Positions 952 to 44,041 of a stretch of DNA of 50,530 nucleotides are shown piece by piece. Source of the DNA: a virus; IMG/VR virus record IMGVR_UViG_3300035661_000089, positions 1 through 50,530 of that record; one strand, 5' to 3'. The translations under genes were made by a program, and so were the position numbers. Below the pieces are notes generated by a model. It did no database searches and was not told where the DNA came from. It saw nothing but the letters and a program-made list of their open reading frames with translations. Each line of letters opens with the position of its first letter. Position 1 is the first letter of the stretch.

Positions 952-1256
952 GCATTCACACGCCAGCTCAGGGCATGGTACTTGCACGCGATGCACTGCG
1001 CCGAGGTGACAACACGGTCAAAGCTGCATTCCTTAAGGGTTTTGAAATGCGCGGCGAACAGGGTTTACAGACGCTGACTTTGACAATGACATTCCTTTCT
1101 AGGAGCTATATGGACCCGATTGAATTACTGAAGTCGCTCGACGATTCATACTGGCGAGCAGCCTTCCGCGAAGGCTTGCGCTGCGGCGCTATGCGCGACA
1201 GGCACTATCACCCGATTGAAGACCGCGAGTTCCTGCTGATGTGGTGCGGTGTATGA
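948..1256 (+). CDS. Hypothetical protein with a possible internal start
   Basis: 102 residues starting at an ATG that overlaps the upstream stop by 4 nt. I do not recognise a family. Two similar helical segments are visible (AAFLKGFEMRG near residue 26 and AAFREGLRCGA near residue 66), perhaps an old duplication. An in-frame ATG at 1110 follows AGGAG at 1101-1105, so a second product of 48 residues could be made. The downstream gene overlaps its stop codon. Confidence 0.5.
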   Translation: MSIHTPAQGMVLARDALRRGDNTVKAAFLKGFEMRGEQGLQTLTLTMTFLSRSYMDPIELLKSLDDSYWRAAFREGLRCGAMRDRHYHPIEDREFLLMWCGV

Positions 1257-27393: not shown

Positions 27394-29397
27394 CTACTCG
27401 GAAGCCTGATATCCAACGTCGCTCAGGATGCGGTATGCGTCAACCTCGTAGCGGTCATAATCGACATTGTCAGGAAACACTTCAGGCAGTTCAAGTAAGG
27501 GCATCGCACCGTCGGACCGTGGCACCTTGTTACCGTTCGACGCATACACCATCTCACCGCCCTGCTCGGTTGCGTAATACCAGCGAATGGACTTGCCGAG
27601 ATACTGGCCGTCTTTTACTGCACCGCCTTTGACTGTTCGTACTGAGACGAACTTGCGAATGTCTTTGCACTCCCGGATCGTTTGCAGTATGGGCACGCCT
27701 TTGGTGAGGAATGCTTCAACAGCTTCTACGCAGATCTGGTTCGTGGGGTTCTTGTGCAAGCGGAGCGCCAGGTTCTTCTTGTCGGCCCACGGGTTAGCAT
27801 AGGCGCCTTTGTTCTTTGTGGTGCCGTCGGGCTTGATCGCGATGTAGTTATTGACGTCCCGACTGTAGATCGCACGGTAAGCCGTCTCTTCTGTCTGGAA
27901 GCCTGTGTCGCGTTCCCACTGAGCAATGATTCCCTCCATTTCCGCGTGGCGCACCTTGGGGCACTTGATCACGATGCCATCGGTGTTTGCGCTGACGACT
28001 TGTATGCCCCGGATCTCCAGGCGCTCGATCAGCATCAGCAAGGACAGCTGGCCCGTCACCGTCACCTGGATCAACAAGTCTGGCGAATAGAGAACGCTGT
28101 ACTTATTGCCGAGTTTTCCGAATGAACCGTTAATCGTAATCTTCAACGAATCGGCGATCACTTTGTTGCCAGCGGCCTTTGCAGCAAGTCGCCTCCCAAC
28201 CAACTGCGCATAGACCCGAAGGAAGTTGGGGCCCAAGTGATGCGGGTAGAGCCCCTGATTAAGAATGATCTGCGGATAGTAGGACGTCACGTCACGGTCG
28301 ACGATCACAGTGTGGTCATCAGCTTCGTGCTTCACGCACTGCTCGGAGCTGTGCAGACCGCCAATCCCCATGCGATAGACCCCCCCTGCGATCTGCAGAT
28401 TGAGCTCTTTCAGCTCAGGGGGCATACCGATGTTCCCGTCCTCGGACACTACGAAGTCAGCATTTCTGACCACATTCAGCGCCCAGTTCATCAGCGGGCT
28501 TTCATACTTTAGGAAGGCCGGGATCTTGTATTTGTAGCGGGTGCCTATGTCGATGACTGGTTTCTGCGCACGCATCCCGTTCAGCTTTGCAACCTCGTCC
28601 GCAATGACAGCCTCTGCAATTTGTGCGTCGGACTTACTGCGGAGGTCCATGCCGTAGTCACTGCTCAGCGTTTCGCGGAGGTCAATCTGTTCTTTGAGGC
28701 ACTGGTACAGAATGGCGGTGTCTGTCAAGTCGTTCACGCAATACCAGCGAACAATCGTAATCTGGTCTTCGCTGAGGAACGTCTCGGGGTGGAACGGTAG
28801 ATCCTGCATCTTGGGGGCGTGCAACCTGCCACCGTAGATTTTCAGGCTTGCTCGTAGTGGTGCAACCTCGATCAGGTCAATGTGATCAACTTGGAGCTTC
28901 CTGACCTTGTATTGCTTCAGCACGTCCGAAGGCCTTGCACCTTCCAGAATGATCTGGTTCGTTGCGTGCTTCAGCAGTGCGCAAGGCTTACCCGCCAGCG
29001 CAAGGGCGGTGATCGGTAAGTCGAAGTTTATACTATTGAAGCCGACGGTCGTGAAGTTCTGCATCACCCACAGCATCTTGGCAACGTCAAACCCCTTGTC
29101 AGGGGTCATCTCAAAATAGATCACCTTGCCTGAAATAACGGAAGTGAACGCGGCTAGGAAATAATTCTGGTAGACCTCAATATCATAGATGAGGCGTTCA
29201 CGGTTAATGCAAGACTGCACCAGCTCGTGATCGGTGAACAGGGGTACAGGGAACACACGTGCCTGTTCCAGCCCCGGCAGGTAGTCCGGACGCTCCCATG
29301 TACGCTCTGGAGGTGTTCGCTTAGGCTTTTCAGCCTTTGGGGGCTTGGCGACTGGCATGTCCTGCCAGAAGAAGCCGATCGAGTCACTGCGGGCCAT
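27394..29397 (-). CDS. DNA polymerase, family B, with proofreading exonuclease
   Basis: 667 residues. Exonuclease motifs: Exo I YDIEVYQ (Asp72, Glu74), Exo II FNSINFD (Asn121, Asp126), Exo III YCVND (Tyr219, Asp223). Polymerase motifs: A DRDVTSYYP (Asp369, Ser372, Tyr373), B KITINGSFGK (Lys419, Asn423, Gly427) and C SANTDGIVI, where Asp473 keeps the metal aspartate but the first Asp of the usual DTD is Asn471. Compact for family B, with no protein-primed TPR insertions that I can see. It replicates the phage genome with the clamp coded just upstream; clamp stop and polymerase start share one base (TAATG). Confidence 0.87.
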   Translation of the reverse strand: MARSDSIGFFWQDMPVAKPPKAEKPKRTPPERTWERPDYLPGLEQARVFPVPLFTDHELVQSCINRERLIYDIEVYQNYFLAAFTSVISGKVIYFEMTPDKGFDVAKMLWVMQNFTTVGFNSINFDLPITALALAGKPCALLKHATNQIILEGARPSDVLKQYKVRKLQVDHIDLIEVAPLRASLKIYGGRLHAPKMQDLPFHPETFLSEDQITIVRWYCVNDLTDTAILYQCLKEQIDLRETLSSDYGMDLRSKSDAQIAEAVIADEVAKLNGMRAQKPVIDIGTRYKYKIPAFLKYESPLMNWALNVVRNADFVVSEDGNIGMPPELKELNLQIAGGVYRMGIGGLHSSEQCVKHEADDHTVIVDRDVTSYYPQIILNQGLYPHHLGPNFLRVYAQLVGRRLAAKAAGNKVIADSLKITINGSFGKLGNKYSVLYSPDLLIQVTVTGQLSLLMLIERLEIRGIQVVSANTDGIVIKCPKVRHAEMEGIIAQWERDTGFQTEETAYRAIYSRDVNNYIAIKPDGTTKNKGAYANPWADKKNLALRLHKNPTNQICVEAVEAFLTKGVPILQTIRECKDIRKFVSVRTVKGGAVKDGQYLGKSIRWYYATEQGGEMVYASNGNKVPRSDGAMPLLELPEVFPDNVDYDRYEVDAYRILSDVGYQASE

Positions 29398-30350
29398 TAT
29401 TTGCGCATCCCGATAATGGCGCCACGCAACCTGTCACCGAAGAACATGCAGGGGCCCGGGTACATGGTCCAGTCTATTTTCGTCACTGGGCCGTCCAGCA
29501 GGCCCAGCATCTCGAAGCTATAGACGCCCTCGTGCTGTAGCTCAGGCACCTCGTAACTTGCCCCCTCCGTGGGGTCTGTGTGGGTGCTGAGCATACCGTC
29601 ACCGAAGAATATGCGGCCCAGCTTGTCCGTGAACGGTTTGACCGTCTGCAGAGCAGTGAACAATCTCGGGTCAATTGGTAGCGGGTTCGATGGTCTGTCC
29701 AACACTTTGGCAAGGTTAGGCCACTCGACGCTATAAAGCTGAGTTCGTATCCAGCGACCGTCACTGTAATGGAACGTGATGCTATTGTCTGTCACTTGCG
29801 CGGAGACAGGAGCCTCGTTGATGCGGAGCATCTCTTTGACGCAGGCACGGGGCACGTTGAGCCGCTTCTGGAAGGTGTGGCCAAGCCAATACTCTGCCAG
29901 AATAATGTTGTTCGTTGCAAACAAGCTCTGACCATCCAACAGAACACCGTTAGACCATGGGCGCGACGCATCGTCACCGATGAACGGAGCCACTGTCTTT
30001 AGTCCGTCGAGCAAGGCCTGGCCGTTAATCCCAACAGGCTCACCCTCGGGTTCAACGTGCGGAGTGTCCCCTTCAATGCAGTCAACAAAGGCCTTAAATG
30101 CACCGGAGCGAATGCTAAGCCTGCCCGCGGGTGTCATGCTCAACTGAACCGTGTCGGTGCAGTTTGCAATGGCGCGAACCAGCGGCTCAGCTTTGGGCTT
30201 GCAACTGATGTCGAAGGGGATGGGGCTGCACAGCGCCAGCGTCCCGTTATACCCTCGCACGCGGCCATCGTTGATCACGAAGTGAGTCAGGGCGGGTAGG
30301 AAGTCTTTCTTGGCGACCGCCCCCATGGCGAATTTGAGTTTGGATAACAT
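29397..30350 (-). CDS. Beta-clamp-like processivity factor
   Basis: 317 residues, slightly shorter than bacterial DnaN (about 366). The repeated clamp pattern is visible: AVAKKDFLPALTHFVINDGRVRGYNGTLAL at the start, then VQLSMTPAGRLSIRSGAFKAFVDC, a second unit with LLDGQSLFATNNIILAEYWLG and QVTDNSITFHYSDGRWIRTQLYSVEWPNL. These fit the duplicated DnaN fold. It would hold the family B polymerase on DNA. The ATG follows the DpdA stop with no gap, which ties DNA modification to replication genes. Confidence 0.7.
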   Translation of the reverse strand: MLSKLKFAMGAVAKKDFLPALTHFVINDGRVRGYNGTLALCSPIPFDISCKPKAEPLVRAIANCTDTVQLSMTPAGRLSIRSGAFKAFVDCIEGDTPHVEPEGEPVGINGQALLDGLKTVAPFIGDDASRPWSNGVLLDGQSLFATNNIILAEYWLGHTFQKRLNVPRACVKEMLRINEAPVSAQVTDNSITFHYSDGRWIRTQLYSVEWPNLAKVLDRPSNPLPIDPRLFTALQTVKPFTDKLGRIFFGDGMLSTHTDPTEGASYEVPELQHEGVYSFEMLGLLDGPVTKIDWTMYPGPCMFFGDRLRGAIIGMRK

Positions 30351-35380: not shown

Positions 35381-35830
35381 TTACGCGGCAGCTTGAGCCG
35401 TTTCGGTAGCAGCCGGAGCAGGCTTGCTCACGCGACCTTCGATGCCGTGGAACTTCTTCCAGCGAGCGTATTCGGTGCGGATGTTGCTGGCGTTCAGACC
35501 ACGAGCTTCACCAACAGACAGCGCATCGCCCACGGGGACGGGTCGGCCCAGCTTGGAGCTCAGCTCATCGAACACTGCCCAGGCACGGCCGCACAGACCA
35601 TCGGGGCCGGGACGGCGGACACCGTTTTGTTCGGGCTGGCGGACAGCTTCCTTGGCCGCTTTGGCGTCTTCCTTGGCCTTCAGCTTCGCAGCCTTTTCGT
35701 CTTCCTTGGCCTTCTTGGCAGCGGCTTTTTCAGCTTCCTTGGCAGCTTTCTTGCCTTCGGCTTCAGCCTTCTTGGCAGCGGCCTTCTGGTCTTCGGTTTG
35801 CTCAGCGGAAGCAGCGGTCTTGGCATTCAT
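35381..35830 (-). CDS. Lys/Ala-rich helical protein with a domain shared with the gene at 36833
   Basis: 149 residues from ATG 35830 (AAGGA, 7-nt spacer); a TTG five codons earlier is unlikely. Residues about 10-70 are a long charged alpha-helix of Lys, Ala and Glu (KKAEAEGKKAAKEAEKAAAK). Residues about 75-138 form a compact domain (QNGVRRPGPDGLCGRAWAVFD, NIRTEYARWKKFHGIEGR). The same pattern ends the protein at 36833-37540, so the two share an ancestor. The domain looks like a small winged-helix DNA-binding unit, so this may be an abundant DNA-binding or chromatin-like protein. It has its own strong promoter and terminator. Unproven function. Confidence 0.6.
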   Translation of the reverse strand: MNAKTAASAEQTEDQKAAAKKAEAEGKKAAKEAEKAAAKKAKEDEKAAKLKAKEDAKAAKEAVRQPEQNGVRRPGPDGLCGRAWAVFDELSSKLGRPVPVGDALSVGEARGLNASNIRTEYARWKKFHGIEGRVSKPAPAATETAQAAA

Positions 35831-35890
35831 GATGAAATCCTTCAATGGGTGAGTTAAGTGAACGGGAACGTTCTTGGGAACGCGGAGCGC

Positions 35891-36832: not shown

Positions 36833-37540
36833 TCACTTAGCCTGACGACCGCGAATGCCGTTGAACTTGCGCCAGACGTAGAACTCGCAAGACACGTTAT
36901 TCTTGTTCCAGCCGTGCGCCTCAGCCAGTGCGGGCAGATCCTTGGCGGTGATGGTAGGCTGTGCATCGAATGCGGCCCACACTTGACCACACACGGTCCC
37001 GGACGAAGGACGGGTCACGCCATTCTGCTTTGGGCGGTCTTTCTCGATGTTGTAACCCTTGCTCACATTCTCGCGTGTGTAGCCGGTGCGGATTTCCTTG
37101 CCAGTGCTGGCGCTGTACGTCGTTTCGCAGGAGTGGCAGAACAAGCTGACGCCTTCGTTGGCCCATGTCTGGTCGCGCTCTTTGCCACACTTGGGGCACT
37201 TGTGAACATTCGTGTAGAGGTAGCCTGCCAGCTTCTCGGTCTCCTCAACGACTTTCGGTGCAGCGGGTTCAACCTTCTTACCGTCACGGACGACCGTGAC
37301 GTTCTTTGCGGGTGCAGGAGGTGCAGGAGGTGCAACAAAGTCAGCAAACGGGCTACGCGAGGGATCTGTGGCAGGGGTTTCCTCTGCGACGGGTTCCTGC
37401 ACAGCGGCGGTGGCTGCAACCAGTGCGGCACGCATCCCGTCATTGTTCATCTTGCCGTAGTTCTTGACGCCGTGTTGCTTGCAGGCTTCGCGGAGTTCCG
37501 TCTTGCCCATTGCGTGGAATTGGTTGTTTGTTGCTTGCAT
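36833..37540 (-). CDS. SAP-like, zinc-ribbon and winged-helix-like DNA-associated protein
   Basis: 235 residues; AGGAG seven nt before ATG 37540 decides the start. Residues about 10-45 (MGKTELREACKQHGV, YGKMNNDGMRAAL) are a SAP-like helix pair. Residues 50-90 are proline-rich and disordered. A zinc ribbon CPKCGKE...FCHSC (about 118-145) follows, then QNGVTRPSSGTVCGQVWAAFD and VWRKFNGIRGR (about 170-232), the domain also found at 35381. The combination of two nucleic-acid-binding types suggests a DNA-binding protein in replication or transcription control. No enzymatic motif. Confidence 0.6.
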   Translation of the reverse strand: MQATNNQFHAMGKTELREACKQHGVKNYGKMNNDGMRAALVAATAAVQEPVAEETPATDPSRSPFADFVAPPAPPAPAKNVTVVRDGKKVEPAAPKVVEETEKLAGYLYTNVHKCPKCGKERDQTWANEGVSLFCHSCETTYSASTGKEIRTGYTRENVSKGYNIEKDRPKQNGVTRPSSGTVCGQVWAAFDAQPTITAKDLPALAEAHGWNKNNVSCEFYVWRKFNGIRGRQAK

Positions 37541-37550
37541 TTGATTTCTC

Positions 37551-37676
37551 CTAAAGAGGTTGAGGTACTTGGTTAATGAGCGTCTTCTTGTCACCCATGA
37601 CCGCAACTGTAGAGCTCTTTTTGACCTGATGCAAGCGATTTTTGGGCTTGCCCACAAAAATTTCGCTTCTAGTCAT
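37551..37676 (-). CDS. Small basic hypothetical
   Basis: 41 residues from ATG 37676, in the 155-nt gap between the helicase stop and the SAP-like gene. Basic (FVGKPKNRLHQVKKSSTVAV). The ribosome site is weak (CAAGAC), but the stop lies exactly in the leader of the next gene, as in the other coupled genes here. Uncertain. Confidence 0.4.
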   Translation of the reverse strand: MTRSEIFVGKPKNRLHQVKKSSTVAVMGDKKTLINQVPQPL

Positions 37677-37695: not shown

Positions 37696-39420
37696 CTAGA
37701 AGGGAATGTCGTCATCCATGTCCAGATCTGTGCTGGGCTTAGCGTGCCCAGGCGTGTGCAGGGAGCGGGACGATGCAGCGGTGTCGACAGTGGGTGCGCC
37801 TTTTCCATCAGGCTCTTGTGTGCTGAACGCGGTTCCATCAAAGCAGTGCGCCAGGATCTCAGGATACTTCTTGTTCACCCATATACGCAAGTGGCCGGCA
37901 GCTTGTAGAGTCTCCGCTTGCTCAAGCGCGAGCGCAGTGCTCTCAGGGAACGGTGCGCCGTTGCTACGCTGAGCCCACCATTGGCGGGCCTTGCGCTGTG
38001 CGAAACCCTCATGCTGGATGCAGACGTACTCCTGAAACATCCGTAGGCCGCAGTAATAGCTGACCTTCATCATTGGAGGCGCTCCCATCTTTTCGTGAGC
38101 GGAATAGGTGATATGGTCAACCTTGAACACTTCAACGATAGGCGCCTCCCCCTTGATCAGCTCTTGCGTGCTGGCGTACTCTTTCAGCTTGACAGAGAAC
38201 TTGAACTCAGCTCCGCAGCAGATGCAATGAGTGACGCTTGCGTGATTGTAGGTCGCACAGCTTCCGCACAGCTTCACAGGTGCCTCTCCGCCCTTCTGAC
38301 CCTTCTTACGAGGTATGACAGGATCGTTAATAGGCCCCAGGCGCCTTGTGTTGCCCGCAAAGTCAAGAACGAGACAGTTCTCTTTCGCGTGGAATGGACG
38401 TGTTCCGCGACCTAGCATCTGCACCCATAACACAGGCGAAGCGGTAGGCCTGAGCACCACAATGAGGTCGATTCCTGGAAAGTCAAATCCTGTGGTCAGC
38501 ACGTTGTTATTCACTGCCGCCTTGTACTTACCAGCCTTGAACCCTGCGATGCCTTCGTCGCGCTCAGCGTCGGTCATTTTGCTATGGATGACCACAGAGG
38601 GCACGCCCAGCGAGTTCAGCATCGCGCCGACGTTCTCCGCGTGCTGCACCCCTGACGCAAAGATCAACCAGTGGTTCCGGTCACCTGCCTGCTCAAGCGT
38701 CTCTTTCAGCGCCGCATAGGTGATCTCGTCTTTGTCGACAGCCAACTGAAGCTCCGACTGGACGAATTCGCCACCTCGCATGTGGATGCCGTTTGTGTCA
38801 AGGATTGCCTTCGTCTGCTTCGGGACCAGCGGGCACAGATAACCCTCAGCGATCAAGCGGTTGAACGCTGCCATCCCGGTGATGTCGAAACAGATATCGG
38901 TGAAGATACCGTCTTCGGTGATGCGACCATGCCCAAGGCGCCAAGGGGTAGCGGTGAGCCCGATGACCTTCAGGTGTGGACAGGACTGCCTCAATTCCTT
39001 CAGGAGGGCCTGATACATGGTTTCGTCGTTGGGACTAACGAGGTGGGCTTCGTCAATGATAAGCAGATCGGTTCGACCGAACAGGTGCGCCTTCTTTGCC
39101 ACCGACGCAATACCCGCGAAGGTGATAGGCATGTATGCCTCTCGACGGTTAAGACCGGCGCTGTAGATGCCTGCCGGCGCATTGGGCCAGAAGCTGATCA
39201 GTTTGTCATAATTCTGCTGAATGAGTTCTTTGACGTGTGTAAGCACCATCACACGCTGATTCGGAAAGTACCGAAACACGGATTCAAGGAACATCGCAAT
39301 GACGACGGACTTACCAGTCCCCGTCGGAAGAGCCAACACGGGATTCCCCTGCTGGCTTCCGAAATAGTCATAGATGCTCTTGACCGCCTCAACCTGATAG
39401 GATCGGAGCTGGAGCAGCAT
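37696..39420 (-). CDS. SF2 DEAH-type helicase with zinc ribbon and SSB-like acidic C-terminus
   Basis: 574 residues from ATG 39420, overlapping the nuclease stop (TGATG). Motif I PTGTGKS (32-38), Ia VLTHVKEL, II DEAH (123-126), III LTATPWR, V TTGFDFPGIDLI and VI QMLGRGTRP give a RAD25/UvrB-type SF2 helicase. A zinc site CGSC...CICC follows (about 385-405). The C-terminal part carries a helical region and a disordered tail ending in DLDMDDDIPF, nearly the same as the partner-binding tip of bacterial SSB. It would unwind DNA at forks or recombination intermediates and may recruit host SSB-binding proteins. Next to the Cas4/RecB-like nuclease gene, with which it probably works. Confidence 0.85.
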   Translation of the reverse strand: MLLQLRSYQVEAVKSIYDYFGSQQGNPVLALPTGTGKSVVIAMFLESVFRYFPNQRVMVLTHVKELIQQNYDKLISFWPNAPAGIYSAGLNRREAYMPITFAGIASVAKKAHLFGRTDLLIIDEAHLVSPNDETMYQALLKELRQSCPHLKVIGLTATPWRLGHGRITEDGIFTDICFDITGMAAFNRLIAEGYLCPLVPKQTKAILDTNGIHMRGGEFVQSELQLAVDKDEITYAALKETLEQAGDRNHWLIFASGVQHAENVGAMLNSLGVPSVVIHSKMTDAERDEGIAGFKAGKYKAAVNNNVLTTGFDFPGIDLIVVLRPTASPVLWVQMLGRGTRPFHAKENCLVLDFAGNTRRLGPINDPVIPRKKGQKGGEAPVKLCGSCATYNHASVTHCICCGAEFKFSVKLKEYASTQELIKGEAPIVEVFKVDHITYSAHEKMGAPPMMKVSYYCGLRMFQEYVCIQHEGFAQRKARQWWAQRSNGAPFPESTALALEQAETLQAAGHLRIWVNKKYPEILAHCFDGTAFSTQEPDGKGAPTVDTAASSRSLHTPGHAKPSTDLDMDDDIPF

Positions 39421-40334
39421 CAGAACACCTCGTATTCGGGGCACCCGCTAAGCTGGCGCTCTTTGCTCAGCACCTCACCAGCACCAGCACCGTCAGGCTG
39501 AGTCGGTCGGTTGCAATACCATTTCCCGTCTTCCATCGGTTCGCTATGTTTGCAGGTGCGGCAGTTACGTTCGGGCGCCAGCTTTAGGTGGCAGACGGGT
39601 TTGTGGTCACACCACTGGCACGCAAACCAGCCAGGGGACTCGCTCACCTTGGATGGTGCCTGTTTCAGCATGATCAGCGTTCTGCCACGGTCAAGGAACT
39701 GGTCTGCAATCGCTGTATCAAGGTGGACAATCTCACCGTAGATTTCATCGTTGTTTTTGTTCACCGCCATGTAGAGCGCGCACGCGATGCCCATCTTGCG
39801 CATGTAGGTATTCATCTGAACGTAGTGTTCAAACTTGGCAGCGCGAACGCCTTCCTTCACCAGCTTCTTAAAAGACGCATCGTTGTGAGTCTTGAACTCA
39901 AGCAGGCAAGCGGTCCCCTCAGGCACATCGGGAATCCCAATAGCCACACCGTCACCGCTGCCCCCAAGGTGCCCGCCGACGTCGCTGATACGGAACTGGT
40001 TCCCGTTCTCGTCTTGTTGGTACACGGTGCAACCAATGGCCAGCAGCATCGCGATGAAGCGTGCTTCTTCAAGGTGCCCGCGGTTGAACAGGCGCAGGAT
40101 GCGGCCGCCGAATTTCGGCATGGTGGCCCATCGGAAGCTGTACCAGATGGCGCGACCACATTCGCTACCCAGGATGGAGGCGCCTAAGTGGGTGCGGAAT
40201 GGCGCGTCGTGACCGCGAAAGGCGTCACCCATATGAGGAATCACCTTGCCCAGGAATTGGCGGAAGGCTGCACCCTGATCGGATGAAATTTGTTGCTCAA
40301 TGAGCTTCAGTGTTTTCGTTGCGAGTTGGACCAT
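39420..40334 (-). CDS. Cas4/RecB-like PD-(D/E)XK nuclease
   Basis: 304 residues. GASILGSECGRAIWY (about 51-64) holds the first cluster Cys, LFNRGHLEEARF the motif His/Glu, GGSGDGVAIG Asp128, LLEFKTH Glu146 and Lys148, HYVQMNTYM the motif Gln. Further cysteines (ACQWCDHKPVC, RNCRTCKHS, GCPEY) near the end can bind an iron-sulfur cluster as in Cas4 and AddB. A 5'-3' or structure-specific exonuclease making 3' single-strand ends is expected, feeding the Sak4/SSB-like recombination module. Not related to any CRISPR array here; none exists. One base shared with the helicase start. Confidence 0.75.
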   Translation of the reverse strand: MVQLATKTLKLIEQQISSDQGAAFRQFLGKVIPHMGDAFRGHDAPFRTHLGASILGSECGRAIWYSFRWATMPKFGGRILRLFNRGHLEEARFIAMLLAIGCTVYQQDENGNQFRISDVGGHLGGSGDGVAIGIPDVPEGTACLLEFKTHNDASFKKLVKEGVRAAKFEHYVQMNTYMRKMGIACALYMAVNKNNDEIYGEIVHLDTAIADQFLDRGRTLIMLKQAPSKVSESPGWFACQWCDHKPVCHLKLAPERNCRTCKHSEPMEDGKWYCNRPTQPDGAGAGEVLSKERQLSGCPEYEVF

Positions 40335-40335
40335 T

Positions 40336-40749
40336 TCAAACCTCTATAGGTTCGACGTGAACACCGGCACGCCTTAAAAAATCAATGCCCGCTTCGTCAC
40401 GGTAGACCTCACGGTAAAAGACCTCTTTCACCCGTGCTCCGTACAGGCGCTTAGCGCATTCTATACAAGGTGCGGTCGTTACAAAGACTGATGAGCCGAC
40501 GCTGGATACGTTAGACCGAATCACCTTGTCCAGTGCGTTCTGTTCCGCGTGAATAACTTCTGGCAGGGTCTTGGACCCGTCAACAGTCTCGCAATCGTTG
40601 CTCCAGCCCTCAGGAGTGCCATTGTATCCGATAGCGATCACCGTGTCGTTTTTCACAACAATGCAGCCCACCTGACGTCTCTTTGCATAGCTCAGCTGAG
40701 CGTAGATTTCAGCGACCGCCATATGGGCGTGTTTCATACGGGCTTTCAT
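40336..40749 (-). CDS. Deoxycytidylate deaminase
   Basis: 137 residues. HAEQNAL gives the zinc His and catalytic Glu, and PCIECAK the two zinc cysteines; GYNGTPEGWSNDCE is the substrate-binding loop of the ComEB/dCMP deaminase family. It makes dUMP from dCMP for thymidylate synthesis. The ATG overlaps the stop of the upstream hydrolase gene (ATGA). Confidence 0.9.
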   Translation of the reverse strand: MKARMKHAHMAVAEIYAQLSYAKRRQVGCIVVKNDTVIAIGYNGTPEGWSNDCETVDGSKTLPEVIHAEQNALDKVIRSNVSSVGSSVFVTTAPCIECAKRLYGARVKEVFYREVYRDEAGIDFLRRAGVHVEPIEV

Positions 40750-41144
40750 GCTGGCACCTTGTAGAACTTGTGATTACCCCATTGACCCACATACGCCAGC
40801 GACTTCGCCCAGTAAGGGAGAATTGACTTTTCGTGGAAGAAGGTGGCGCCACTGGTGCGGTCGCGCACCAGCATGGAAACCCGTGCAACTGCAAGGCAGT
40901 TATTCCACACGCGGGAATGGAAGTCGGGTAGAGCTGACTTCCCCACCTTGCCGTGTCTGACGTCGGTGATGGTCCAGGAGAATTGATTTCGTGCAAATAC
41001 CACGTCGCAGACTGATTTGTCCTGTTTCTTGGAGCGGTTGAGGGTCACCATTGCGACCGCCATCTTACCCTCTACAGGTTCTCCGCGTGCTTCCTTGTAG
41101 ATGTTGAGCGCCAAGCACATCAGCGCAGTCGTGAAAATAGCCAT
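40746..41144 (-). CDS. SleB-type cell wall hydrolase
   Basis: 132 residues; GAGG five nt before ATG 41144 rejects the long upstream frame to 41264. The family motif LNIYKEARGEPVEGKMAVAMVTLNR (about 11-35, with the catalytic Glu) and SVCDVVFARNQFSWT (about 45-58) are those of Hydrolase_2/SleB. No signal peptide is separate from the domain. Surprisingly it is in the early block, apart from the lysis genes at 24-26 kb, between dCMP deaminase and the TraR-like gene. It may act in the virion, in superinfection control or only late. Confidence 0.82.
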   Translation of the reverse strand: MAIFTTALMCLALNIYKEARGEPVEGKMAVAMVTLNRSKKQDKSVCDVVFARNQFSWTITDVRHGKVGKSALPDFHSRVWNNCLAVARVSMLVRDRTSGATFFHEKSILPYWAKSLAYVGQWGNHKFYKVPA

Positions 41145-41151
41145 TTGCGCC

Positions 41152-41343
41152 TCAAGGTAGTTTGTGTCTGTCGGGGCACGATGCGCAGACACCCTTGACC
41201 AGCCGTTGCGAGAATCCCCCACGGAGGTCGCACTCCCCAGGAACACCGACAGGCATGTTTGCAACCCGTTGGCGTATCACGTTGACCTCTGCTTCAAGCA
41301 GAGGTCCAGCCAGGTCCTGTGCGTGATCTACTTCATCCGCCAT
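41152..41343 (-). CDS. TraR/DksA-like zinc finger protein with one cysteine replaced
   Basis: 63 residues; GAGGAAG before ATG 41343. The opening MADEVDHAQDL, the helix IRQRVAN and the zinc part GECDLRGGFSQRL...GVCASCPDRH follow the TraR family, which binds RNA polymerase in the secondary channel and changes promoter choice without ppGpp. The normal CxxC at the first zinc pair reads C-D-L-R: an Arg codon CGT stands where TGT (Cys) would complete it. Zinc binding may therefore be weakened or changed. Confidence 0.75.
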   Translation of the reverse strand: MADEVDHAQDLAGPLLEAEVNVIRQRVANMPVGVPGECDLRGGFSQRLVKGVCASCPDRHKLP

Positions 41344-42356: not shown

Positions 42357-43160
42357 TTACTGAGCAGGCTGAGCCCAGGGCGGAACCGCACCAGCAGGCT
42401 GAGCGGGTGCGTATTGCGGCGCTGCCTGTTGCGGTGCAGGTTGAGCAGCGGGAGCCTGTTGCATCCAGGGCGGTGTAGGCGCAGCTTGCTGAGGAGCTTG
42501 CTGCTGAACGGGTGCCTGCTGAGGTGCAGCCTGCCAGGGTTGCGCAGCGGCAGGAGCTTGCCAAGCAGAGGGCGCAGCTTGCGGAGCGGGCTGCACAGGC
42601 GGCGCATACTGCTGGGCCTGTGCAGTGGGTGCGGGTGCGTATTGCTGCGGCTGTGCGCCCCATGCTTGCGGCGCTGCCTGTTGCGGGAACTGGTGAGCGG
42701 GAGCCTGTTGAGGCGGAGGCTGGAATGCAGCGGGTGCAGCGGCGTGAGCTTGTTCAACCTGCTCGTTGATGTTCTTGAAAGCGTTGATTTCGTTGGACGC
42801 TTCGTAGTCACCGCTGGCGGCGCGAACCTTCACCTTAATCTTCAGCGGACGGTTATGCAGCATGGAAGAGTCTGCGATCTGCAGAATGCCCACAGCGTGA
42901 GCAATTGCGCTCAGTTGCTTGTAGGCGATTTCCTGTGCCACGGGATTGCCGTTGCGGATGTTCAAGCGCGAGAACACTTTGCGGTTAACGAACTGACCGT
43001 CGATCACGTTGAAGCGGAGTTCGAGGTAAGCACCCGAACCGTCCTTCGTGGGTTTCAGTTCAGACTGGTCGATTGCCGCGTTATACCAGCCTGCGGGAAT
43101 CGCCTCCAGTACGCCAGCATCCGGTGCGACTTGCGATGCATCAAAATTCAATTGTGCCAT
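42357..43160 (-). CDS. DUF669-type single-strand-binding-like protein
   Basis: 267 residues; AGGAG eight nt before ATG 43160. Residues 1-130 (VLEAIPAGWYNAAIDQSELKPTKDGSG, YLELRFNVIDG, NRKVFSRLNIRNGN, ALKIKVKVR-type strands) are DUF669, a beta-barrel family linked to Sak4-type recombinases in phages. Residues about 150-267 are a long disordered tract of Pro, Gln and Ala repeats (PQQAPAHQFPQQAAPQ). It ends in PPWAQPAQ without the acidic SSB tip; that tip is instead on the helicase at 37696. Works with the Sak4-like ATPase next upstream. Confidence 0.75.
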   Translation of the reverse strand: MAQLNFDASQVAPDAGVLEAIPAGWYNAAIDQSELKPTKDGSGAYLELRFNVIDGQFVNRKVFSRLNIRNGNPVAQEIAYKQLSAIAHAVGILQIADSSMLHNRPLKIKVKVRAASGDYEASNEINAFKNINEQVEQAHAAAPAAFQPPPQQAPAHQFPQQAAPQAWGAQPQQYAPAPTAQAQQYAPPVQPAPQAAPSAWQAPAAAQPWQAAPQQAPVQQQAPQQAAPTPPWMQQAPAAQPAPQQAAPQYAPAQPAGAVPPWAQPAQ

Positions 43161-43201: not shown

Positions 43202-44041
43202 TTACCGCGTGAAAAGATCGATGCCAGAGGTCTTATACAGTGCCTCAGCGAAACTGTTCCATCCATTGGCAGGAGGGGCGGGAATGGGTAACTCGCCCAG
43301 CATACCAAAACGATTTCCGGCGGTATAGGAAGGCGTTCTTGACAGTGCAAGAACTCGACCCTTATTCTGTGACACGCCGCGAGTCATGTTGCTCTTGTCC
43401 GCAGTCATCAGGTAGATCGGTTCATACAGGAAGCCAATAACGTCAGCCCATTGCGTAATCAACTCACGCTTACCGTAGGTTTTCTGATTCTTTGGGGAAT
43501 GCAGAAGCAAGTCCCAAGAGTCATATTCACCGCTTGTTGGATCCATAATTTTGGAACTAAAGACGTGGCAGGTCAACACGATGTTAATCCCGCCAAAGAC
43601 CGCCAGTTGATCCAACTGCTTGAGCAGTCCTTCGAACACCGCGTTCGCAAGGTTGTAGGCCTTACCGTATGCACCGTGAGCGGATTCCATGGTGACCGTC
43701 TTGTTCGACCCTGGCTTGTATGTGGGGTCGAGGCGCAAAACATGCTCATGAATGTGACGCTCCAGTGCGGTGGCGCTGTCAAATACGATGGTCTTGTATG
43801 GGAACTGACCACGCTGAGCCGCTGCCGTGACTTCGGTCAGCAATTGCTGCACCTCGTCGAAGCTCTGGAGCATAGGGGTCTTCTGCACGTTCACCCCTGC
43901 ATAACCTACTTCCAGCGGCACCAGTAGCGAAGCGGGGGCGCCTGCACTGAGGGTCGTCTTACCCATCTTTTCCTGACCCGCAATTACCATGCGAATTCCT
44001 GTGCGAGTTACTCCGCTCGTCACGTTCTGCAGTATGCTCAT
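43202..44041 (-). CDS. Sak4-type RecA-like ATPase
   Basis: 279 residues; GGAG seven nt before the ATG. GQEKMGKTTLSAG (about 22-34, Walker A) and KTIVFDSATALE (about 82-93, Walker B). The core is a RecA-like P-loop fold (AAA_24/Sak4) without the RecA C-terminal domain. Sak4 proteins anneal single strands with a DUF669/SSB partner, which follows directly. The start overlaps the TOPRIM gene stop. Confidence 0.82.
   Translation of the reverse strand: MSILQNVTSGVTRTGIRMVIAGQEKMGKTTLSAGAPASLLVPLEVGYAGVNVQKTPMLQSFDEVQQLLTEVTAAAQRGQFPYKTIVFDSATALERHIHEHVLRLDPTYKPGSNKTVTMESAHGAYGKAYNLANAVFEGLLKQLDQLAVFGGINIVLTCHVFSSKIMDPTSGEYDSWDLLLHSPKNQKTYGKRELITQWADVIGFLYEPIYLMTADKSNMTRGVSQNKGRVLALSRTPSYTAGNRFGMLGELPIPAPPANGWNSFAEALYKTSGIDLFTR

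Follow-up and report, generated by a model that had tools for sequence, protein, structure and literature searches.

An SSB-type C-terminal tip on a RadD-like phage helicase, with the sliding clamp or a small Cys4 protein as alternative carriers in related phages

The RadD-like helicase of a Queuovirinae-like siphophage ends in DLDMDDDIPF, an acidic tip of the type found at the C-terminus of bacterial SSB, and in related phages this tip is carried instead by the sliding clamp or by a small Cys4 protein, with at most one carrier per locus. We consider it slightly better than an even bet (probability of about 0.55) that selection maintains the tip as an SSB-Ct docking motif acting in trans on an SSB-interacting protein of the host; that the partner belongs to the host is what we infer. 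The window analyzed here is the entire virus record (50,530 bases), and the features discussed are listed in Table 1.

The C-terminus of the helicase is STDLDMDDDIPF and the ORF, read to its stop, closes with HTPGHAKPSTDLDMDDDIPF. The sequence-only reading of this DNA had correctly noted that the last ten residues nearly match the SSB tip; the final six, DDDIPF, are in fact identical to the C-terminal hexapeptide of E. coli SSB (PMC5928155, PMC10238739), and the helicase displays the SSB-Ct arrangement, i.e., an acidic stretch followed by [IV]PF at a free C-terminus. It is the sole protein found in the virus record with such an end: none of the other ORFs among the 26 read out on the minus strand has one, and a loose six-frame scan returned the helicase and one antisense ORF, nothing else. 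At the DNA level, the pattern [DE][hydrophobic]PF-stop occurs at two sites in the record, 37696-37710 (-) and 1088-1102 (+), the latter in a different frame from the ORF listed at that site. The same reading had stated that the DUF669 SSB-like protein of this phage lacks the tip, and this is true, as the protein encoded at 42357-43160 ends in PPWAQPAQ. At the other extremity of the helicase gene, the ATG at 39420 overlaps the 3′ end of the upstream exonuclease gene.

Table 1. Features of the helicase gene and of the surrounding replication cassette (window coordinates).
Feature	Position	Strand	Remarks
Phage DNA polymerase (phrog_1252)	27394..29397	(-)	
Sliding clamp (phrog_947)	29397..30350	(-)	Tip-less in the window, ends RGAIIGMRK; tip carrier in related phages
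RadD-like SF2 helicase/ATPase	37696..39444	(-)	582 aa from GTG; 574 aa from ATG at 39420
Helicase stop TAG	37696-37698	(-)	
SSB-type acidic C-terminal tip, DLDMDDDIPF	37699..37728	(-)	Ten codons
Variable linker	37729..37821	(-)	Mostly disordered in the AF2 model
Second motor domain, Cys4 zinc ribbon and RadD-type C-terminal domain	37822..38715	(-)	To about residue 541
First motor domain (ResIII/DEAD)	38944..39414	(-)	Residues 11-167; contains the equivalent of the E. coli RadD SSB-Ct pocket
Cas4-type exonuclease (phrog_1990)	39420..40334	(-)	Adjoins the helicase; its end overlaps the helicase start
Phage SSB, DUF669-type (phrog_13350/phrog_6015)	42357..43160	(-)	No SSB-Ct tip; ends PPWAQPAQ
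Sak4-like annealase (phrog_124)	43202..44041	(-)	Possible partner of the SSB PPW tail

The label of SF2 helicase given by the sequence-only reading holds and can be narrowed to RadD specifically. By sequence (phmmer against E. coli RadD 6jde, E=1e-59) and by predicted structure (Foldseek best match of the AF2 model to RadD 7r7j, E=4e-35, about 600 columns over the whole length), the protein is a full-length homologue of RadD (YejH); it also matches phrog_16 (E=1e-94), and its Pfam matches are to helicase/AAA families only, the OB-fold family PF00436 not being among them. In the structure comparison, the E. coli and phage proteins share the full-length fold and the domain order, with 27-28% identity over about 600 columns. 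They differ in that E. coli RadD ends in LAHELRG and receives the SSB-Ct, whereas in the phage the helicase is itself the tip carrier, with non-basic residues in place of two of the three pocket arginines (see below).

Conservation of the tip was followed among homologues drawn from viral contigs and named phages, where the check proposed by the earlier reading, a search for helicases of this family with DDIPF-type ends, proved positive. The tip is present on the helicase in 48 of the 49 members of a sub-clade (45-100% identity to the window protein; clade n=98), the single exception being Knedl, of the Iggyvirus group, whose tip is on the small protein instead. DDDIPF is near-fixed in these homologues, while the linkers that precede it (median of about 36 residues in the other helicases) vary in both sequence and length, so that the tip is conserved above its flanking linker. 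The tip itself was one of the six patterns used in the first locus search; when this was repeated with a profile stopping before the tail, the same picture emerged, with the tip again marking a helicase sub-clade. A scan for DDDIPF followed by a stop further showed that distant RadD-like phage helicases (27-42% identity) end in the same way; its 112 carriers included 32 canonical SSBs and three RadD-like helicases, and others matched further SSB families. Of note, recurring short, un-SSB-like phage proteins of 73-85 aa also end in DDDIPF (L172, L186, L229, L276, L191, L223, L241, L264), so small proteins with such a tip may be widespread among phages.

Helicases without a tip, some of which stop at about residue 535, usually coexist with a tip on one of two other proteins: the sliding clamp (phrog_947), at its C-terminus, or a small Cys4 protein of about 60-85 residues (phrog_23504). 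Across the 98 helicase loci, the carrier is the helicase in 48, the small Cys4 protein in 20 and the clamp in 12; no carrier was found in 18, and none has two. Label shuffles never gave zero double carriers (0/20,000 trials), although they ignore relatedness. Mapped on a 124-row tree, the carrier class requires at least 14 changes, versus a mean of 60 after shuffling, the figures for the clamp and the small protein being 5 and 10. The six named genomes have one tip each, on the helicase in NP1, on the clamp in UF_RH1 and RcThunderbird, and on the small protein in Halfdan, Langgrundblatt1, and Iggy; as NP1, UF_RH1, and Iggy all infect Pseudomonas, the carrier varies while the host genus is constant. 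In 40 whole records, additional copies of the tip pattern were about as frequent as the background given by a reversed-pattern control. Close relatives whose helicase lacks the tip, which the sequence-only reading had named as counter-evidence, do exist in Knedl/Iggy and in the Septimatrevirus UF_RH1, but there the tip has been relocated rather than lost. A whole-record pattern search did not find the tip motif in several longer records (27-59 kb) and, together with the 18 of 98 loci without it, this indicates that the tip is either not indispensable or present in a form missed by the pattern.

Two observations concern the small proteins. At several loci (L145-L147, L151, L155, L160, L163, and L164), a 74-aa protein encoded just past the helicase stop ends in TPEVPF, TEGVPF, or KEGMPF; it is a possible fourth, degenerate carrier and is perhaps DUF6511-like. 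An origin of the small Cys4 protein from the C-terminus of the exonuclease (39420-40334 (-)) was considered and set aside, as the Cys motifs are only weakly alike and the hhalign probability reaches only 52%.

The genes surrounding the helicase encode a DNA polymerase, a sliding clamp, a DUF669-type SSB, Sak4, a topoisomerase, a ligase, a primase, and dPreQ0 functions, a layout that is that of Queuovirinae such as the Nipunavirus NP1. A tip-bearing homologue of the clamp is modeled with the fold of bacterial DnaN, the beta clamp, its C-terminal tail being of low confidence. In 13 phage records, no match to the clamp-loader family PF13177, the single family searched, was obtained, while E. coli and other controls were positive; a divergent loader could escape this search. 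PF00436 SSBs were similarly absent from the 13 records, that of the window included, with positive controls. Elsewhere in this replication cassette, the proteins encoded at 35381-35845 (-) and 36833-37657 (-) match the same PHROGs through their C-terminal parts (phrog_21588 and phrog_11298, with no assigned function), and the ORF at 40746-41264 (-), located between deaminase-like and MazG-like genes, reads as cell-wall-hydrolase-like.

How the tip might work can be proposed from these data. It would give a phage replication or recombination protein a hold on one of the host proteins whose usual docking site is the host SSB. The DUF669-type SSB of the phage would not fulfill this role, its PPW tail probably serving phage partners; the host-type tip would instead be placed elsewhere in the cassette, namely on the RadD-like helicase in this phage and on the clamp or small Cys4 protein in relatives. 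In this respect, the idea of the sequence-only reading that the helicase, and not the SSB, is the docking hub agrees with the presence of the motif on the helicase (48/49) and with the PPW end of the SSB, but is too narrow, given that relatives have their tip on the clamp or the small Cys4 protein. Known SSB-Ct binders include chi, ExoI, RecO, RecQ, PriA, PriC, RNase HI, and RadD (PMC10238739). With a phage-encoded clamp and no detectable loader, this phage plausibly needs the host loader, and because the chi subunit of this loader binds the SSB-Ct, chi is favored as the first candidate: through chi, the tip would bring the host clamp loader to a phage fork that has a clamp and lacks a loader. 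This choice stems from host biology and the failure to detect a loader, not from a signal in the sequence, and chi as the particular partner is a doubtful, if attractive, candidate; it would be the most likely single one, with PriA, RecO, ExoI, RNase HI, and host RadD also possible. A precedent exists in YoaA, which chi links to the replisome (PMC4636137). The likeness lies in a helicase being tied to the replisome through chi, which for the phage tip is only proposed; YoaA is an XPD-type helicase, its chi-binding site was unknown in that study and no SSB-like tip was reported there (PMC4636137).

The host-docking reading has to be weighed against others, among which is the suggestion, also made by the sequence-only reading, that the tip regulates the helicase itself. 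The tip would then dock on the helicase's own RadD-type pocket and switch its ATPase, replacing stimulation by the host SSB; a tip borne by the clamp or by the small protein would then act on the helicase in trans, as an activator. Such a mechanism is suggested by E. coli RadD, where the SSB-Ct is bound in motor domain 1 and the peptide stimulates the ATPase (PMC10238739), and the linker is long enough to reach the pocket. In E. coli, however, this pocket is framed by R21, R49, and R145, and charge reversal of any single one severely weakens binding (PMC10238739), while the window helicase has G29, N62, and K159 at these positions and thus keeps one of the three, as a lysine. Among the 48 tip-bearing helicases, a basic residue is found at R21 in 14 and at R49 in 5; the K or R seen at R145 in all 48 speaks for the self-docking mechanism, but is also there in 41 of 44 helicases with no tip found nearby. 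The AF2 model of the full-length helicase leaves the tail undocked, with pLDDT under 40, even if weak docking can escape monomer modeling. As the pocket is poorly kept, the tail undocked and the tip present on other proteins, self-regulation is disfavored as the main role, and we regard it as quite unlikely.

Another option is that the partner is encoded by the phage, for instance Sak4, the primase-helicase, RNase H, or the exonuclease, with the tip holding together a recombination or replication complex. Phage HK620 offers a direct parallel, as the last six residues of its SSB, NDYPPF, are required for binding and stimulation of Sak4 (PMC5928155), and a Sak4-like protein is encoded in the cassette studied here. 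The two systems would have in common a phage protein whose last six residues dock a recombination partner; in HK620, nonetheless, this protein is the SSB and its partner is a product of the phage, whereas the tip described here is on the helicase, clamp, or small protein. In addition, DUF669-type SSB homologues, found without a tip in nearly all loci, have a conserved PPW motif near their C-terminus, and the SSB adjoining Sak4 keeps this tail, which is nearer to NDYPPF than is the host-type DDDIPF. By analogy with HK620, the PPW tail is a possible Sak4-docking tail; since the NDYPPF end is needed for Sak4, PPW may be phage-internal and DDDIPF host-facing. One exception combines the two, a DUF669-type SSB (L249:6540-7037 (+)) that ends in VPPWAAKPAEGLDDDIPF, i.e., PPW and then DDDIPF. 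The simplest explanation for a tip identical to that of the host is a pocket on a host protein, and a phage-encoded partner seems unlikely. The tip could also be a decoy that competes with host SSB and diverts or blunts the nucleases and repair proteins of the host, ExoI or RecO for example. The motif evidence fits this idea as it fits docking, but the tip is carried by replication enzymes and the host normally contains plenty of SSB, making titration by a helicase or a clamp unlikely; we consider a decoy very improbable. Lastly, the motif is just six residues long and might be a product of chance or a neutral relic, e.g., of the recent fusion of an SSB gene end. This is scarcely tenable: DDDIPF is expected in only about 4e-9 of ORFs (from the C-terminal residue composition of ORFs of six relatives), which led us to reject a chance origin. 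Conservation contradicts it as well, with 48/49 keeping the tip across deep divergence, its presence on the distant helicases mentioned above, and its relocation within the cassette to other proteins when the helicase is tip-less.

The SSB-Ct motif and the RadD family were already known; the nature of the carriers and their at-most-one distribution appear to be new, no description of a tip-bearing phage helicase or clamp, or of such a distribution, having been found in the open-access literature. Like the bacterial SSB-Ct (MDFDDDIPF), the phage tip is acidic, has the same last six residues and closes the chain after a disordered linker; the bacterial motif, in contrast, belongs to an OB-fold SSB, while the phages have theirs on proteins of other kinds (helicase, clamp, small Cys4 protein), with no PF00436 domain in the record analyzed. 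A possible, still tentative rule for this group of siphophages is that each genome has at most one host-type tip, interchangeable between the helicase, the clamp, and a small zinc-type protein; to a fork with its own clamp and SSB and no loader, this tip would recruit the host clamp loader via chi, or else a different SSB partner of the host.

The SSB-Ct is a standard recruiting signal of bacterial DNA metabolism, and the literature ties it to SSB. That related phages have it on the helicase, the clamp, or a small protein, never on two of them, separates the docking signal from single-stranded DNA binding and suggests that the tip is a transferable device for capturing host proteins of replication or repair. 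The variation in carrier amounts to a natural experiment that could reveal the host partner required for phage replication, and suggests a route by which phages with a clamp of their own and no clamp loader might use that of their host.
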